IMG/VR virus record: IMGVR_UViG_3300021962_000645
Coordinates: 1-24,016 of that record
Reading direction: 5' to 3' (one strand)
Source of the DNA: a virus
Length of the DNA: 24,016 nucleotides
Shown piece after piece: positions 5,372 to 19,569 of the stretch (position 1 is its first letter; each line of letters opens with the position of its first letter). The position numbers and the translations under genes were made by a program. Below the pieces are notes generated by a model. It was given only the letters and a program-made list of their open reading frames with translations. It was not told the origin of the DNA and made no database searches.

Positions 5372-8300
5372 CTAGGCCACCAGTGCGCGGTCTTGCGCGA
5401 ATTGAAGTTGACGAGTGAGTTCACGGATCGCAGAGAGCAGGGCGGCGTTGTCCTTGCCGCCAGAGCTTGTCGATGTAAGTTCTTTGCGCAACGCACGAAG
5501 CTCGTTGACCATCTCCGACGTGTCGAACATCGACCGACTGTCGGTGTTGCTGTAGACGCGGCTCCCTTGCGGAAACTGCACGATTTCTGCGCCGCGCTCA
5601 CCGACAAGCGACATGCCGCCCTGCGTGACACCGCCAGTGGCGTATGTCGGGAGACCGTATTGAGAGGCAAGACTATTGATCATATCGAGCGCAGAGCCCG
5701 AGTATGAGATGATTGGATCAAGGTATGCCACATTTCTCGGATGCGTTGTCGTCTTGCGCTGAGTGCGCAGTGCGGTGTCCACAGCGCGAATACTTCCCCC
5801 CGTATCAATCATGTTCGCGATAGGCATGCCGCTGCCAGGGGAAGCAGCGTCCCATGTGAGAAGGTCTGCTTTGATCTTAGAAAGCGATGTCGCAATTAGG
5901 GCAGCTACTTGCTCGCTGGCAGAGGGCGGTGCTGGGCTACCACCACCGCCACCACCGCCACCGCCACCGCCACCACCCACTGGGAGCGCGTCAGCAGGGG
6001 GAGGAAGTGCTGCAAGCTCGTTGATCGCGGCGATCACCCGCTGCAACTGACCAACGACCGATTGTGTCCCGATATAAATCTGCTGGACAATATTAACGCC
6101 GCTGCCGCCATCGGCCTGTATAGCCTCCAGGATAGCGCGAGAAATCGCATTATCCGTCCCAGCGACTTGCGCGATAATTTGTTGCAGGCTGGCCGAGGCC
6201 GAAAGCTTGCTCACAATAGCCGTAGCGTTCGTGTCCGCAGCGCCGGTCAGCACGCTCAGCGCATCACGGACCTGATCCGCTTCGGCGACATCGATAAGCC
6301 CGTCAGCCGTCGTTCTCCGCAACGTATCGACCGCGCGCACCAGAGCACTGCTCTCCTCGATGCCAGCGCCAATCAACTCAATGCGAAGCCTATCAAGGGC
6401 TGACGTGACGGCAGGAAGCTCGTCTACAGACAGCCCGTCTGCCAGAGCCGTGGTGATCGTGCGCGCGTTCTCCGAGCTTCCTATGATGACGCCCGCAAGA
6501 CCCCTTTCCAGGGCGGATGTATTGCCAATCGAGGTTTGCCGCAGCGTCTCCAGCGCGCCGCGCGTTGCTTCCGCTTCCGCGACATCGATCAGGCCGTCCG
6601 CTGTGGTGTTCAGCAGCGTGTCGATAGCGGAGACGATACTTGAGGTTGACGCGACACCAGCGCCGACCAGCGTCTCACGAAGGCGGTTCAACGATGTCGT
6701 GACGCCAGCCACTTCACTTGCGACCAACCCATCAGAGAGCTTTGCTACGACCGACTGCGCGTCAGCGCGGGCCGTAGCCGACGCGGATATGATCGATTTG
6801 GCTATGTCGCCAGCCGCCATACTGAGTATGCCGAGTGCTGCGCGTGTCGGGCCAGCCTCTTCAACGCTGATCAAGCCGTCTGCTGTAGTGCGAAGCAACG
6901 TGTCGATAGCGGAGACGATACTTGAGGTTTCTGCGACACCAGCGTTGACCAGCGTCTCACGGAGGCGGTTCAACGAGGTCGTGACGCCAGCCACTTCATT
7001 TGCGACCAACCCATCAGAGAGCTTTGCTACGACCGACTGCGCGTCAGCGCGGGCCGTAGCCGACGCGGATATGATCGATTTGGCTATGTCGCCAGCCGCC
7101 ATACTGAGTATGCCGAGTGCTGCGCGTGTCGGGCCAGCCTCTTCAACGCTGATCAAGCCGTCTGCTGTAGTGCGAAGCAGCGTGTCGATAGCGGAGACGA
7201 TACTTGAGGTTTCTGCGACACCAGCGTTGACCAGCGTCTCACGGAGGCGCGTCAACGAGGCTGTGACACCAGCCACCTCGCTTGCGACCAGCCCATCGGA
7301 GAGCTTCTCCACGACCGACTGCGCGTCGGCGCGAGCCGTAGCCGACGACAAGAAAATCGCTAAAGAGATAGCATCAGTGGAATTGCTGATAAGCGCACCG
7401 ATGTTGTTCAGGGCGGCGATCTGCTCAAGCAGCAGCGCCTGATCGACCGTCTGCTGGGACATGTTGTCCTTGGTGAGCTTTAGCAGTTCGGTCTGCACGT
7501 CATAGAGCTTCGCCTGATAGTCGGCGGTCGCGCCAAACGTGTCTGCCGAAAAGCCCGCCGACTTCAGCAGGCCCTGCACAAACGAGAAGTCGTCGGCATA
7601 GGCTGCGGTGCTCGCGTTGACGCTCTTCGACTGACCAAGAAACGCCTGCGCCAGCCCTCCGAGGCTTCGCAATGCATCCATGTCGCCGCCACGAGCAGCG
7701 GTACCCGCCGCCTCAAGCTGGGCTTTCGACGCGGAATACTTCCCCATCGGGCTAAGCGTCGATAAGTCGCCCACCATGAGCCCGCTCAGGGTTTGTTTGA
7801 TCGATGCGCTGACCGATGCGTATTGCTCAGAAAGGCTGTGCGCAGACTGCGCGGCGCGCTGCGAATTACCAATGAGCGCGTCTATTGCGGAGGACGCGCT
7901 AGAGATCACGTCCTCAAACAAGCTCTTTGCAGCGTCCGCCACGCGAGCGAATGCAGGCGCAACGGCCATCAGACTGGCATAAAGCGCAGCGCCCGATTGC
8001 GTCGAAACGTCAATGCCTAAAACCAGCGCCGCAAATTGGTCTTTCGACGTTACCGCCGAATAACCAAGCCTCGCCATCTCAGACGCTGTCGCAGCAATTA
8101 TCGGCGCAAGCTGCTGAGCTTCGGTCAAGAAGTTTTCTACAAAGAACTCTGCCTGTTCCGTGAATTGGTCTAAGCCGCCCGACAATTGAACAAGCCTGTC
8201 CCTGGCCTCAACCGAAGCGAGGCCAACCGCGCCAAAAGTTTTCCCCATCGACGCCAGCGTGAGATCGACAACTTGAAATTCACGGGCGACACGCACAAGC

Positions 8301-12037: not shown

Positions 12038-13290
12038 TTACGCTTCTGAGTCACAGATTTGGATCGTCGAGCCAGTAATGCCGGTGCTCGCCTCTGTGCC
12101 GTTATATTTCAGTGCCTGGAACGGCAGCGTGATCGATTGACCACTCTCCCCCTGCACCGGATTGTCGTCGCCCGTAAACTTCACGCGCGGTACATACAAC
12201 GTCATCGCTGGCGAGTTTACATCACTCGTGGTCGTCAGGTAAGCAAGAATGCTGATCTCGGTTTCGTTCTTGAAATCGTTGATCAATGTGGCGTCTTCGA
12301 GAAAGGCGGTCATCTGCCCAGTCAGGTTCGCGCGACCGAGGAAGATTTCGGGCACATAATTCTGACCAACAACAGACGCTGTGGACGGATTGAGGTTGTA
12401 CGCAAGGCTCAATCCCGTAACGACGCCGACCGTGGTGCCGCCAACCTGCAAGAGGCCGTTCACAGCGGCGAAGATGCCGGTGTGGTTTCCGCAGTCGGCG
12501 AAGTAAAGAACGGCGCGCTTGCTCCGGTCGTCACTTCCATGTCGCGGCCCATCAGCGTGAAGTCGCATGTCGCCATACCTTCTGCGGGCAGGCCGATGTT
12601 GAAGCCGCCGACGCGGCATTCTGTAAACAACTTCGCCAGATCGATGTCTTCGTAATAATGTTCGACACCGAACTTGCGCTCGACCAAGCTGGACGAGGGC
12701 TGCACAAGGCGCTGACCAGCGCTCGTAACAGTAAACGAAGAGTCTGGTGTGGCGTCCGTCGTCGGTGCAGGGTAGACAGCCACGACACGATTGCTGGTCC
12801 CGCTGAAGCCGGTGATCACATAGTTGGTCGCATTGTTTGCCGACGTTGCGAGGTTTGCAAACCGAAGAATGTGGCCGACGCGCATCCCAAGCGTCACCGG
12901 AGCGCCGCCAGCGAACGTAAACGTGCTCGTGACGCTGCTCGAAATAACCGAAGTCAGGTCGGTGTTGCTCAGAGACAACGCAGCCTCCCACGTTCCGCGC
13001 GAAGCGGCTTCAAAAAAGTCCTTGTACGACCCTGGGGACAATTCTCCGGTGATTGATCCAGTGACGCGCTTAGAACCGAGGCGCACATCCAACAATTGAC
13101 GGTCGTTACGAACTTCCGCCGAAGTGTACGGCGGACGGTCCAACTTCAGTGTGCTCGAAACGCGCCGAAGAATCTGCGCGCTGCCTGCAGCAGGGTCCGT
13201 TGCCGATACCGGCTGACTGTTGGAGGTGATAACACCCGTGGAATAGGCTTTATAAGTTACTCGCGCTGCTGCGCCGTCTGCGACAGACAT
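12038..13290 (-). CDS. Major tail tube protein, interrupted by an apparent -1 base frameshift
   Basis: The gene starts at ATG 13290 with a strong AGGAAA ribosome binding site. The first frame encodes 276 residues and stops at TGA 12462-12460, but the family-like sequence leaves that frame earlier, after FFTSPTAETTP. It resumes in the -1 frame as GIFAAVNGLLQVGGTTVGVVTGLSLAYN and runs to TAA at 12038, ending IQICDSEA. Adding one base in CCGG near 12477-12480 restores a continuous protein of about 417 residues. The C-terminal part (VPEIFLGRANLTGQMTAFLED, then MTLYVPRVKFTGDDN and TLPFQALKYNG) is characteristic of siphophage tail tube proteins that stack in hexameric rings. It sits between the tail terminator and the chaperones. 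The break is either a real mutation or a sequencing error; I see no slippery heptamer near it. Confidence 0.82.
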
Positions 13291-13359
13291 GGGGCTTTCC
13301 TTTCGTGTTCAAATTTGCGCTGCTGCGCTATCGGTTGCCCAAGCCAGTTCGGGCTTAAG

Positions 13360-15357: not shown

Positions 15358-15999
15358 TCAGTTTGCGGTGATCAGGCGGTAGCGATTAAGCTTCTGCATG
15401 ATGTCAACCGGCACGCCACTCTTGAAATCGTCAGGGGCGAATAGTTGGTAGCTGTAAAGCCCTTCAAGAATGTTCTCGCTCTTAAGCGTCGGATCGCGAG
15501 TCCGATTAAATCGCGCCAACTTAACTAGCGCGATAGCCGCAGCTTCGATATCGAGCGGAAGGTTGCGGCCCGTGTCATCCGGCAACAACCAGCCAGCGAC
15601 ATAGGTGACGACAACCTTGTCGTTGTCCCAGCTAATTGGGTCATCATCGCTCAACTGAGTAAGCAAGCCAGAGACCTTGCTCACTTCGTAATCGGCGGCA
15701 ACGAGCGTGTCGCCGTCAGCAACGACCGAAGTGATCGACACTGTCGGTGCGCGAGGTAGCAGCAGTTTGCTGTATGCGCCGTTCAAGCGGAATGTTTTCA
15801 CCAAAGTCTCTCGACCCAACGTCACCGTTCCATCTTCCGCGACAGCGGCCCCTACTATCCCGCAGATATCTAAGCTCACACGCTCGATAAGACTCTCGAT
15901 GTAATCGTCCTCGTCCGTTGATGTAAGGCCGAGGTCGTCCTTGACCGCATCAAGCGTTGTCAGGTTTGTACTGGTGGCTGCGGTTGTGACTGTGAGCAT
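15358..15999 (-). CDS. Head-tail connector protein, gp6-like (phiE125 gp8 type, 213 aa)
   Basis: ATG 15999 overlaps the stop of the preceding small gene (TGATG); a TTG one codon earlier is possible. The N-terminus LTTLDAVKDDLGLTSTDEDDYIESLIERVSLDICGIVG is the classic helical start of gp6-like connectors. A beta-rich middle follows (LLLPRAPTVSITSVVADGDTLVAADYEVSK), then a helical end with IEAAAIALVKLARFNRTRDPTLKSE. This arrangement matches the phiE125 gp8 family of head-tail connectors. The dodecamer-type ring would extend the portal and carry the stopper. Length is usual for the family. Confidence 0.85.
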   Translation of the reverse strand: MLTVTTAATSTNLTTLDAVKDDLGLTSTDEDDYIESLIERVSLDICGIVGAAVAEDGTVTLGRETLVKTFRLNGAYSKLLLPRAPTVSITSVVADGDTLVAADYEVSKVSGLLTQLSDDDPISWDNDKVVVTYVAGWLLPDDTGRNLPLDIEAAAIALVKLARFNRTRDPTLKSENILEGLYSYQLFAPDDFKSGVPVDIMQKLNRYRLITAN

Positions 16000-16121
16000 C
16001 AATAGTCCCCGAGGTTCGCCCAGATAATCGTGATCGTGCCACTGACAAGCACAGCACCGGTCGCGGAAATGTGGGCATCGCGTTCGGCTCGCGCAAGGTC
16101 ACTTTGTAAAAGCGCCGTCAT
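15999..16121 (-). CDS. Small coupled protein of unknown function (40 aa)
   Basis: ATG 16121 overlaps the upstream stop as ATGA, and its TGA at 16001-15999 overlaps the connector start as TGATG. The product begins MTALLQSDLARAERDAHISA and continues with a short hydrophobic strand (VLVSGTITIIWANLGDY). It fills the only space between the two neighbouring genes, and without it the coupling chain would be broken. The tight fit on both sides supports translation. It could be a small head or neck protein, or a coupling peptide. I do not recognise it. Confidence 0.55.
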   Translation of the reverse strand: MTALLQSDLARAERDAHISATGAVLVSGTITIIWANLGDY

Positions 16122-16333
16122 GGTGCCCTCCGCTGAGAGCGTGGAAGTTGCAGTGTGGTTTTTGCTTTCATCATCCGGTTCACCGGAGCCGCGCTGATTG
16201 CTTCATCAAAGTATTCAGCCTGTCCTGCCGCGATCATGTGTTGCGCCTGCGTAGCAGGCATCGCCGTAAAGACGTGCCCTTTCGGCCAATGCTGCCACGC
16301 ATATCGCAGCCTGACCGGCTTCAGCGTATTCAT
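16118..16333 (-). CDS. Small conserved-type phage protein (71 aa)
   Basis: I use ATG 16333, which overlaps the upstream stop as ATGA and has GAGGTG about 7 bases upstream; GTG 16339 is an alternative. The protein reads MNTLKPVRLRYAWQHWPKGHVFTAMPATQAQHMIAAGQAEYFDE. It has the look of a common class of short phage proteins found beside connector genes: a basic first strand, a Trp, a proline turn before a strand, then a helix with a small-residue turn and a final acidic strand. No function is known to me. A minor head or neck role is inferred from position. Confidence 0.65.
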   Translation of the reverse strand: MNTLKPVRLRYAWQHWPKGHVFTAMPATQAQHMIAAGQAEYFDEAISAAPVNRMMKAKTTLQLPRSQRRAP

Positions 16334-17502
16334 TTCCACACCTCGTCTGGGAGACCGTTTGTCTGAAATTTATGCGGAACTTGAAAGATCGGTTTGAGTT
16401 CGTTGCTGGGCCAAAGAATCATAAGCTCCAGGTGCCCGACAACAACCCTGTTCGCCGAGAACAGTTTCAGGCCCGCCTCATTCCACTGCTTCCAGAAGTA
16501 GATGTCGGCATCGACGCGGCCTTCGCCCCAGGTTTTATCCGGCGCAGGCTGGCTCCAGAGCCACGGCTTCGGCAGCTTGAGCAATGACGATGTCCTGATC
16601 AGCGTGAGACCGAAGTGCGCGGTCTTTAGCCGTGTAATGTCGTCTGCGAATGCTCCAGGGGGCAAACGGTCATAGCCAGAGACGCCCAACGGCATATCCA
16701 TTGTGAGCATCGGCCCGTGGCTGTGCCGCGCGGATTGTATCGGCGCAAGCGCATCCACTTCTGGGCGCTCCTGCATGATTTTTATCAGCTTCTCGACGTG
16801 CGCCTGCGTGTAGACGGTGTCGTAGTCGATTGTCAGGATTGCGTCTGGCTGATCTTCTTCGATAGTCGCCGTTAGCGTCCGCTCAAGACACGCTTCCCAG
16901 TATGCACCCATGTGCCTACGGAGCTTTATGCCGGTAGAGCCGAGCGCCTCGAACGCGCAGAAGAAGTTGTCCATAAAGCCAAGACGTGGAACCGACATCA
17001 CAGCAGAAACTTTGAATTTGCCGGAAACCTCGCGCTTGCGAGGCTTTGTGCCCTCAAGATTCAGGGACACGGGGAGCGCGGCGCAATCGTCTGACAATTC
17101 AGACTTCCATTTAACAATGTCGATGAGCCCGGCCAGTCGCATCGCTTCCGAGAGACACTCGTCGTCAAAGATCGCCTTGTGATGGTCGTCAGCGTCTACC
17201 TGCCCGCCCATCACATACCCCTGGACCGGGATATTGTCGCCTTTCAGGTAGTGCTCTGCGACCCACTTAAAATCCGGCACAGCAATTTTCATCGTGCCAC
17301 CGGGCTTCAACTTCGACACCCAGTGCGTAAGCACTTCTACGGTCTCGCCCCCGCCGAAATGTTCCAGCACATGGCTTGCGCGGATCACATCGACGGATGC
17401 GTCCTCGTAAGGCAGCGGATAAATTTCGCTGTTGTGCGCTCTTCCGAGCGGCGTAAATCCTTCCGGCGATACGGCACCGGCACCTAGATCGAGTTTCAAC
17501 AT
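16330..17502 (-). CDS. Bifunctional-looking methyltransferase / glycosyltransferase (390 aa)
   Basis: ATG 17502 follows a good GAGGA ribosome binding site. Residues 1 to about 150 look like a SAM-dependent methyltransferase: LDLGAG (4-9) as the SAM-binding motif, then VIRASHVLEHF (39-49) and LKPGGTMKIAVPDF (65-78), the order seen in Methyltransf_11-type enzymes. Residues from about 163 look like a GT-A glycosyltransferase: KVSAVMSVPRLGF, an AILTIDYD DxD-type metal site (D226, D228), and GEGRVDADIYFWKQWNEAGLKLFSANRVVVGHLE (327-359), which resembles the late part of such domains. The gene lies between the candidate decoration protein and the connector genes and is not needed for assembly in known siphophages. 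It may modify virion or host surface molecules; substrates are unknown. Confidence 0.75.
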   Translation of the reverse strand: MLKLDLGAGAVSPEGFTPLGRAHNSEIYPLPYEDASVDVIRASHVLEHFGGGETVEVLTHWVSKLKPGGTMKIAVPDFKWVAEHYLKGDNIPVQGYVMGGQVDADDHHKAIFDDECLSEAMRLAGLIDIVKWKSELSDDCAALPVSLNLEGTKPRKREVSGKFKVSAVMSVPRLGFMDNFFCAFEALGSTGIKLRRHMGAYWEACLERTLTATIEEDQPDAILTIDYDTVYTQAHVEKLIKIMQERPEVDALAPIQSARHSHGPMLTMDMPLGVSGYDRLPPGAFADDITRLKTAHFGLTLIRTSSLLKLPKPWLWSQPAPDKTWGEGRVDADIYFWKQWNEAGLKLFSANRVVVGHLELMILWPSNELKPIFQVPHKFQTNGLPDEVWK

Positions 17503-17568: not shown

Positions 17569-18006
17569 TTAGCCCTGAACGAGATTCAGTGCATTGGCTT
17601 TGGAAGCAGTGATCGGAGCTTGTTCGCCTCGATGGAGGTTGGCGACACCAGCAATCACCATCGTTGTCTGCGGACTGGCCTTCACTTGAAGATACCGCTT
17701 GCGGGCACGACAATCGATGTTGAACTTCCAGACGTTTTGGTTCGTCGTCGTTGTGTAGGCGTTGGTCGCGATAGTGAAGTCCGTTCCAGACACCAGCCCC
17801 GAGATATTTGCAAAGCCGGAAGTGGTGTCGCTCTCTTGGAGCGTGAGCACGGACAGCGTGTTGCTGACCACGTCGGCGGTGCTGGCAATAACGTCGATTG
17901 TGACGAAATCGTACCCCTTCGTGTCAATGGTTTCGCCGGTTGCAGTCGCGCCGTTAGTTTTCGAGATCGGAATGATCGCGATGACAGCCTTGGATTGGGG
18001 AAGCAT
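17569..18006 (-). CDS. Beta-rich structural protein, candidate capsid decoration protein (145 aa)
   Basis: ATG 18006 lies three bases after the upstream TAA and has the best ribosome binding site of this region (GAAAGGAGAATAAG), suggesting high expression. The protein is Thr/Ser/Val-rich with alternating short strands (AVIAIIPISKTNGATATGETIDTKGYDFVTIDVIAST, then NVWKFNIDCRARKRYLQVKASPQTTMVIAGVANL). This suggests a beta sandwich. A small abundant protein right after the major capsid gene is commonly a decoration or cement protein. The family is not recognised, and a head-fibre or minor coat role is possible. Confidence 0.65.
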   Translation of the reverse strand: MLPQSKAVIAIIPISKTNGATATGETIDTKGYDFVTIDVIASTADVVSNTLSVLTLQESDTTSGFANISGLVSGTDFTIATNAYTTTTNQNVWKFNIDCRARKRYLQVKASPQTTMVIAGVANLHRGEQAPITASKANALNLVQG

Positions 18007-18007
18007 C

Positions 18008-18256
18008 TTATTCTCCTTTCGACGAATATTTCGTCGATTTCTTGTTTGTGAATCTCATTGCGGTGTCATCTTCGGCGGTAGCCGCTTCGACAACAGGGTC
18101 CGCAACAGGGCCGACTTTCAGGGCGTCGTGGACTGCCTTGGCTTGCGCCGGGGAGAGATCAACACCGATCTGCTCACCAGTGCTTGAGCGAAGGACAATC
18201 CAGAAATGACCGCTGCCGACAGAGCGCACGTTCACTTCAGCCTTCATCATTCTCAT
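18008..18256 (-). CDS. Small protein after major capsid gene, unknown (82 aa)
   Basis: ATG 18256 overlaps the capsid gene stop (TGATG). Two further ATGs lie within the first four codons, so the exact start is not certain. The first 50 residues read as a small fold (VNVRSVGSGHFWIVLRSSTGEQIGVDLSPAQAKAVHDALK): strand, strand, then a helix. The last 30 are low-complexity and acidic, then Lys-rich. The stop is followed three bases later by the next ATG. Position suggests a minor capsid or assembly factor, but I do not recognise it. Confidence 0.6.
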   Translation of the reverse strand: MRMMKAEVNVRSVGSGHFWIVLRSSTGEQIGVDLSPAQAKAVHDALKVGPVADPVVEAATAEDDTAMRFTNKKSTKYSSKGE

Positions 18257-19569
18257 CAATCACCAATGAGCGCGATGAGGGGTCCGGCGTCCGTGTTGTC
18301 GCCGAGATCATGGACATTGATGTCCACTCGTTCGGTCGCCTGAATGCCGATTTGGTCATATTCAAAGTAGCGGTCGTCCGAAGTCTTGACGCGGACGCCG
18401 CGACGCTCGCCCATGCGTGTAGACAACGACAGATCGCCGAAGAACAGCATGGCAACATCGGAAAGGTCGCCCGTGCTGGTCGGAAGCTTCTGGTCGATGA
18501 CGACTTCATAGCCGAGATAGGCGCGACGCGGCTTGCCGCCCGAGAGTTCGCCGATAGTGACGCCACCAGACGCCGCCATAAGCCGCTGGAACACCAGCGC
18601 CCAAGCAGGCTGCGAGCAGTACCACTTCGCGTTGCGTTCCGCGTATTTCGGGAGCGCCGCCATCACCGTCGCGAGATCGCTCGCGTCGATTTCGGCAAAC
18701 GTGTCGTGGTTTGTCGCTGCATCTTTCGCCGACGCCGTGTGCGTGCCATCGATGATTTTGACGCGACAGCCCGTAATACCGCCATAGGCGGACGATCCGG
18801 TGCCATTCCATCCGCAATCGTCTTCGAGAGACGCGAACGCATACGCCATTTCCTGCGCCAGATCGTCAGCGATGTTAATCACCGCGTCTTCCGCCAACTC
18901 CGTTGACATGCGCGACAGCGCGCCGATCTTCTTCGCCGACAGAGAGATTTGGTCCCACGACTTCTGGCTTTCGGTGATCGCCGCGTTTTCTCCGACGAAG
19001 TAAGCCGTGACGCCGCCGCTACGACGCGGAATCGTCATGCTGTCAGAGCCCATCGGCACCATGCGGCAGTTCTGCCGGAACATGCCGTACTCTTCGCGGA
19101 GATCGATGATCGCCGTCTCGAATTGCGTCGGGACAAGGAATCCGCCCGCCGTGTTCGTGCCTTCGGACTGCGCCTTCAGATGAACGCCGAGCCCGTTGTT
19201 GCGGCACCACTCAGCGGCCTGCTCGTTCTTGAACAGGGTCGCGCGGATGAACATGCCGGAGAGGTAGGCATCGTCTTCTGCGGTCGTGCCCTTGAACGCG
19301 ACCAGCTTACCGTAGCGGCGCTTCGGCACCGGGTAAGTCTTGGTCTCGGTTTCGATGACGGTCTTCGCCGTCGATGCGGTCAAGGCGTTCGCCTCTTCGG
19401 CGCGCTTGATCTTCGCGTCGAAGCCTTCGATGTCCTTCTTCAAGGCGTCGTAAGCAGCTTGATCGGCTGGCGCATCGACATAACCATCCGCATTCATTTT
19501 CTCCGCGAGTGCGGCGAAACTGTCAACTTTCTCCGCACGCTTAGCGCGAAGTTCTGCGATCTTGTTCAT
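18256..19569 (-). CDS. Major capsid protein, HK97 fold (437 aa)
   Basis: ATG 19569 has AAGG about 8 bases upstream. Residues 1 to about 130 are a charged, helical scaffolding (delta) domain (IAELRAKRAEKVDSFAALAEKM; YDALKKDIEGFDAKIKRAEEAN). The mature coat then begins around AQSEGTNTAGGFLVPTQFETAIIDL, the standard start of HK97-type phage coats. The E-loop/P-domain pattern follows (MVPMGSDSMTIPRRSGGVTAYFVGENAAITESQKSW), and the end contains GYEVVIDQKLP and the ERVDINVHDLGD segment. Its protease lies directly upstream and probably removes the delta domain near residues 130-138. It is the main shell protein. The gene pair and order (portal, protease, capsid) are standard. Confidence 0.95.
   Translation of the reverse strand: MNKIAELRAKRAEKVDSFAALAEKMNADGYVDAPADQAAYDALKKDIEGFDAKIKRAEEANALTASTAKTVIETETKTYPVPKRRYGKLVAFKGTTAEDDAYLSGMFIRATLFKNEQAAEWCRNNGLGVHLKAQSEGTNTAGGFLVPTQFETAIIDLREEYGMFRQNCRMVPMGSDSMTIPRRSGGVTAYFVGENAAITESQKSWDQISLSAKKIGALSRMSTELAEDAVINIADDLAQEMAYAFASLEDDCGWNGTGSSAYGGITGCRVKIIDGTHTASAKDAATNHDTFAEIDASDLATVMAALPKYAERNAKWYCSQPAWALVFQRLMAASGGVTIGELSGGKPRRAYLGYEVVIDQKLPTSTGDLSDVAMLFFGDLSLSTRMGERRGVRVKTSDDRYFEYDQIGIQATERVDINVHDLGDNTDAGPLIALIGD

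Follow-up and report, generated by a model that had tools for sequence, protein, structure and literature searches.

A predicted methyltransferase-glycosyltransferase fusion enzyme that may modify a candidate capsid-decoration protein in uncultured HK97-type phages

A protein that joins a methyltransferase (MT) domain to a glycosyltransferase (GT) domain is encoded among the structural genes of a viral contig of 24,016 bases, which was analysed over its whole length and is called the window below. Judged from sequence and structure prediction, this enzyme probably glycosylates a protein of the virion and methylates the sugar so attached; the likeliest acceptor is deco14, which the adjacent gene encodes. 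The evidence for this lies in the two domains and their predicted folds, an invariant catalytic pattern, a near-obligate linkage of the GT to deco14, and a set of exchangeable sugar-enzyme neighbours. From it we infer catalytic activity, a protein acceptor, a sugar as the methyl acceptor, the order of the two steps, and a role in masking, altered adsorption or particle stability.

The fusion gene occupies 16330-17502 on the minus strand and encodes 390 residues. It begins with an ATG preceded by the ribosome-binding-like sequence AGAGGA, and its GC content by codon position is approximately that of the neighbouring genes. On the minus strand, the head side runs in the order TerS, TerL, portal, protease, major capsid protein (MCP; 18256-19569, HK97 type, PF05065 at 1e-45), an 83-aa ORF, deco14 (17569-18006, 145 aa, PHROG 5707 at 1.8e-11), and the fusion gene. 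There follow a 73-aa ORF (16118-16339), which overlaps the fusion gene at its 3' end and has no significant family match in Pfam or PHROG, and a head-tail adaptor (15358-16002, PHROG 442 at 3.1e-25), whose conserved place, judged by synteny, bounds the site on the downstream side. More connector genes, tail genes and the tape measure gene complete the series. The original prediction had placed an ORF of 390 residues here, between a candidate decoration protein and the connector genes. The ORF is exact, its relatives put it far beyond chance, and the placing holds, with the 73-aa ORF intervening on the connector side.

All of the motifs first read from the translation are present in the protein: LDLGAG (residues 4-9), LEHF (46-49), LKPGG (65-69), DYD (226-228), GEGRVDAD (326-333) and GHLE (356-359). 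An AlphaFold2 model, based on an alignment of 25 homologues, has a mean pLDDT of 89.2 and contains two well-predicted domains, with a weak linker near residues 159-161. The protein has no membrane segment (maximum 19-residue hydropathy 1.2), and there is no model for it in NCBIfam.

Two further features of the window concern its tail genes. A tail protein that is a single ORF in two relatives (427 aa in L010 and 405 aa in L028) is split over two frames in the window (12041-13308, minus strand; ORFs at 12460-13290 and 12038-12991). The frame break, near 12480-12540, could stem from misassembly or mutation, or could be a programmed frameshift. The tape measure gene carries a tandem repeat at 6587-7347, with a unit of 282 bp (94 residues), 2.7 copies and 93% matches.

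The N-terminal half of the fusion protein (residues 1-155; 17038-17502, minus strand) is assigned to the class I SAM methyltransferases. It matches Pfam PF08241 (Methyltransf_11) at 23.8 bits, above the cutoff of 21.2, and in a fold search among solved structures residues 1-159 matched the methyltransferase 3cc8 with Z 13.4. The LDLGAG segment (17476-17493, minus strand) is SAM motif I, and its glycines are strongly conserved: G7 is found in 90 and G9 in 87 of 90 distinct MT domains. An acid in motif II, which follows the second strand and binds the SAM ribose, is a usual, not universal, feature of class I methyltransferases. In the alignment, the 16 distinct members of the window's MT subclade all have Gly at position 20, and the other subclades have Asp or Glu there. 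Position 5 is always Asp in this subclade, so that Asp5 and Gly20 co-occur there, while most relatives have Asn5 and Asp20. One change may compensate for the other within the SAM site. A decaying MT half was considered, and the domain identities do not support it. Because the MT half is more conserved within the subclade than the GT half (60% versus 55% mean identity), it appears to be under constraint, and SAM binding by it is predicted. E47, H48, D106 and H108 are also kept.

The C-terminal half (residues 163-390; 16333-17016, minus strand) is matched by HMM in all loci and has a predicted GT-A fold. The closest solved fold to residues 163-382 is that of STIV A197 (PDB 2c0n; Z 18.8 over 178 residues, rmsd 2.7, 13% identity), followed by the human LH3 glycosyltransferase domain and mimivirus R699 (Z about 16), with many GT-A enzymes at Z 13-16. 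A sequence profile search of the PDB with the GT half returned chance matches only, and A197 was reached at E 0.81 with the whole-protein profile only. The link to A197 rests on the fold, since sequence profiles give no reliable match. Against the Pfam GT2 profiles, the GT half of the window scores 11.7 bits, below both cutoffs (23.3 and 27 for PF00535 and PF13632). Among 43 diverse GT domains, 17 are matched by PF13632 (best 1.3e-7) and 16 by PF00535 (best 5.6e-5) at E<=0.05. Given that relatives reach E 1.3e-7, GT2 kinship of the window protein is likely by sequence, though it is not filed as GT2.

R173, D226, D228, R259, D331, D333 and H357 are invariant in 103 of 103 distinct GT domains. 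From general knowledge of GT-A enzymes, we take D226 and D228 (within DYD; 16819-16827) to be the DXD metal site, D331 and D333 (within DAD; 16504-16512) to be the catalytic-base motif, and H357 (16432-16434) to be the third metal ligand, all on the minus strand. The original prediction of a SAM-methyltransferase-like half and a GT-A glycosyltransferase-like half is thus borne out by profile and structure searches. The MT half lies above its Pfam cutoff and has the predicted fold and an intact motif I, with the usual ribose-binding acid absent. The GT half has a predicted GT-A fold and an invariant DXD-type motif, and its relatives match GT2-type profiles.

A first scan of IMG/VR found 27 loci, of which 17 were full or nearly full fusions at 43-55% identity, and most of the others matched the GT half only. 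A profile scan of IMG/VR then confirmed at least 575 related contig stretches, the best 80 of which were kept for analysis. Relatives are also present at 8 loci in metagenome-assembled bacterial genomes, where contamination of the bins by phage contigs is possible. Among isolated phages in GenBank, the GT half had no match with either the window query or L022, and all matches fell in the MT half; a query with L089 likewise matched in the MT part only. For deco14, no match was found among isolated phages. Matches in plasmids were confined to the MT half. Samples of 369 and 390 cellular genomes yielded just two seed genomes and two standalone MT matches. Judged by these samples, it is not an ordinary host gene. 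The MT-GT family has no description in the literature searched, a search that left most subscription journals and all preprints outside.

The two domains appear to have been brought together more than once. In a tree of 104 GT domains, the presence of an MT requires six changes, at least five of them forced by supported branches. GT-only versions occur at the same site in some relatives, while L027 and L032 pair the GT with a different, CmoB-like methyltransferase, and in L035 a gene of its own, lying between TerL and portal, encodes a related MT. Because MT and GT are paired repeatedly, the pattern supports their acting in a single pathway. Unusual arrangements were also seen. A second downstream ORF in two relatives (L095:8297-9691 and L096:8297-9691) has the reversed domain order, in which a weak GT match precedes the MT match. 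Three others (L017:6421-9152, L048:3509-7149 and L056:2-1969) contain two GT-family copies each, flanking an adaptor-like gene.

The proposed acceptor, deco14, is a candidate decoration protein mainly by its place after the MCP. Its model is a beta sandwich (pLDDT 77.6), whose fold is matched best by YomS (Z 10.7) and XepA (Z 10.5). The Bordetella phage entry 3j4u_H, described in a paper on how jellyrolls secure the shell, matches at Z 7.1, which is within background. Ser and Thr make up 32 of its 145 residues.

Linkage between deco14 and the GT was examined in both directions. Of 102 GT-seeded loci, 100 have a deco14 homologue as the closest labelled gene upstream; on the downstream side, the closest labelled gene encodes the adaptor in 72 loci and a tail protein in 1, and 19 have no labelled gene there. 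Since this set was chosen by the GT, a reverse search was run with deco14 as the seed. It found a GT in 66 of 69 testable loci (30 with an MT and 36 without), an MT only in 1 and neither in 2; eight of the deco14-seeded loci lie on contigs that the GT-seeded set also contains. When the lineages shared with that set were removed, a GT was present in 18 of 19 testable lineages (defined at 85% deco14 identity). The lineage without it (L156-L159) has deco14 and adaptor matches 285 bp apart, and no GT or MT. This is a natural empty site, and differences between its deco14 and the GT-linked homologues could point to the residues that are modified. The reciprocal searches thus show a near-obligate pairing of GT and deco14 in the relatives found, with a deco14 query built from GT-linked sequences, which could miss remote deco14 relatives that have no GT. 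Because the linkage is reciprocal, deco14 is the best acceptor candidate. Within a single phage lineage, neighbours may stay linked through common descent and not because one is enzyme and the other substrate, and the presence of deco14 in virions is predicted.

In some relatives the interval between deco14 and the enzyme holds other genes, and in 39 GT-seeded loci the distance from the deco14 match to the enzyme exceeds 300 bp. In 19 loci it contains a group of FkbM-like methyltransferases, assigned by similarity; the three members tested singly all matched Pfam FkbM (E from 0.017 to 3.5e-5), and one exceeded the cutoff. Sulfotransferases are inserted in 6 loci and nucleotidyltransferase-like genes in 4. 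At the same site, four loci (L036, L038, L049 and L111) encode a GDP-mannose 4,6-dehydratase that has a cupin match at its C terminus and scores 374-389 bits against an NCBIfam gmd cutoff of 415. In L012, another GT lies downstream. The inserted enzymes are of the kinds expected for making and varying a glycan, and the site looks like an exchangeable glycan cassette. As all four dehydratase loci fall within the window's own MT subclade, a GDP-linked deoxy-sugar is a reasonable guess for the donor used in that subclade; the 24 kb of the window contain no GDP-mannose dehydratase gene. Also downstream, amid structural genes, L037 (7771-10789) has glycoside hydrolase genes, one of GH16 and one with a GH26 match below the cutoff, which separate its fusion gene from the adaptor.

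Taken together, these features would fit a soluble bifunctional enzyme encoded among late structural genes. Its GT-A half would move a sugar from a nucleotide-sugar onto a virion protein, with a metal held by D226, D228 and H357 and either D331 or D333 as the base, and the acceptor would most likely be deco14. The SAM-binding half would then methylate the transferred sugar, so that glycosylation would precede methylation, and the capsid surface would come to bear a glycan. The earlier proposal that an enzyme in this position modifies a capsid protein is strongly supported by the near-obligate deco14 pairing and by the other sugar enzymes at the site.

The acceptor might instead be another virion protein (MCP, adaptor or tail tube), with deco14 merely a conserved neighbour. 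The glycosylated proteins of mycobacteriophages are capsid and tail tube, the MCP gene is next but one to the GT and is also conserved beside it, and one locus (L025) has an MCP and a GT with no deco14 detected. Nevertheless, the deco14-seeded search returns a GT almost every time, and hundreds of isolated phages carry an MCP homologue but none of them matches the GT half, so we regard this reading as unlikely. A similarly low probability is given to the view that the GT alone acts and that the MT half of the window's subclade is a scaffold or binding domain, no longer a methyltransferase. The replacement of the acid at position 20 by Gly throughout the subclade would agree with it, as would the GT-only versions at the same site; on the other hand, motif I is intact, the subclade has a fixed D5 in place of the Asn of most relatives, the MT half is the better conserved of the two, and E47, H48, D106 and H108 are retained.

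Modification of a host surface glycan, leading to receptor change or superinfection exclusion, is less probable still. Phage GTs that alter O-antigen are known, and GT-A domains with MT and sulfotransferase neighbours are also found in envelope glycan pathways. However, the absence of a membrane segment, the fixed position of the gene among structural genes from capsid to connector, and the near-obligate pairing with deco14 all speak against a host target. Least probable of all, and only barely credible, is glycosylation of hypermodified phage DNA. Viral GTs that glycosylate DNA are known, as cited in PMC12619734, but a thymidylate-synthase-family gene, the usual maker of hydroxymethyl-pyrimidines, is absent from 14 related contigs of 30-98 kb, which are perhaps incomplete, and the gene adjoins a capsid gene.

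Beyond the window, the preferred reading of a virion-glycosylating enzyme with deco14 as acceptor can be extended, more tentatively, to the whole group. It is conceivable, at somewhat short of even confidence, that a large uncultured group of HK97-type phages has a near-obligate pair of genes, one for a capsid decoration protein and one for its dedicated glycosyltransferase, and varies the glycan by swapping methyltransferase, FkbM-like, sulfotransferase and GDP-sugar genes at one site, giving interchangeable particle glycotypes. This would suggest that self-glycosylation is central to a phage group that is widespread in the environment and has no match among the isolates searched. The fusion protein and deco14 also form a concrete candidate enzyme-acceptor pair that can be tested without the phage.

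Several known systems bear comparison. The LH3 glycosyltransferase domain and mimivirus R699 share the GT-A fold with the fusion GT at Z about 16, but are larger multidomain enzymes with 7-14% identity. LH3 acts on protein acceptors. STIV A197 is the closest solved fold, is likewise virus-encoded and, in the review PMC10551542, is described as essential for STIV, with B345, the coat protein, as its possible glycosylation target; the review treats both donor and acceptor as still to be established. Unlike the fusion, it has no MT domain, belongs to an archaeal virus with a different capsid, and has only 13% identity and no reliable sequence match.

For tailed phages, the literature searched shows virion glycosylation by phage enzymes in just a few mycobacteriophages. 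In those of cluster O, an O-methyltransferase gene is followed by three GT genes in tandem, and these enzymes modify capsid and tail tube (PMC11600133; also PMC12363180). This Corndog-like cassette was examined in the cluster O phage Wildflower, where the O-MT and three GT genes lie between portal and protease. As in the window, MT and GT genes stand among head genes; in contrast to it, they are separate genes, the MT is of TylF type, and one GT matches the GT25 profile. In Che8, gp108-gp110 are GTs reported as required for capsid glycosylation (PMC12363180); their genes lie at the far genome end, and no MT is annotated beside them. Profile comparison detected no homology to the fusion for the Wildflower MT and two of its GTs, or for Che8 gp109 and gp110. 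Probabilities were below 1% for all five mycobacteriophage proteins, which were single sequences on that side, so that very remote kinship is possible. On these five comparisons, the predicted glycosylation enzymes considered here are not detectably related by sequence to those of mycobacteriophages, and they would have a single fixed slot for varying the sugar. Outside detectable membership in that enzyme family, the fusion system is a candidate analogue of mycobacteriophage virion glycosylation and may work in a similar way.
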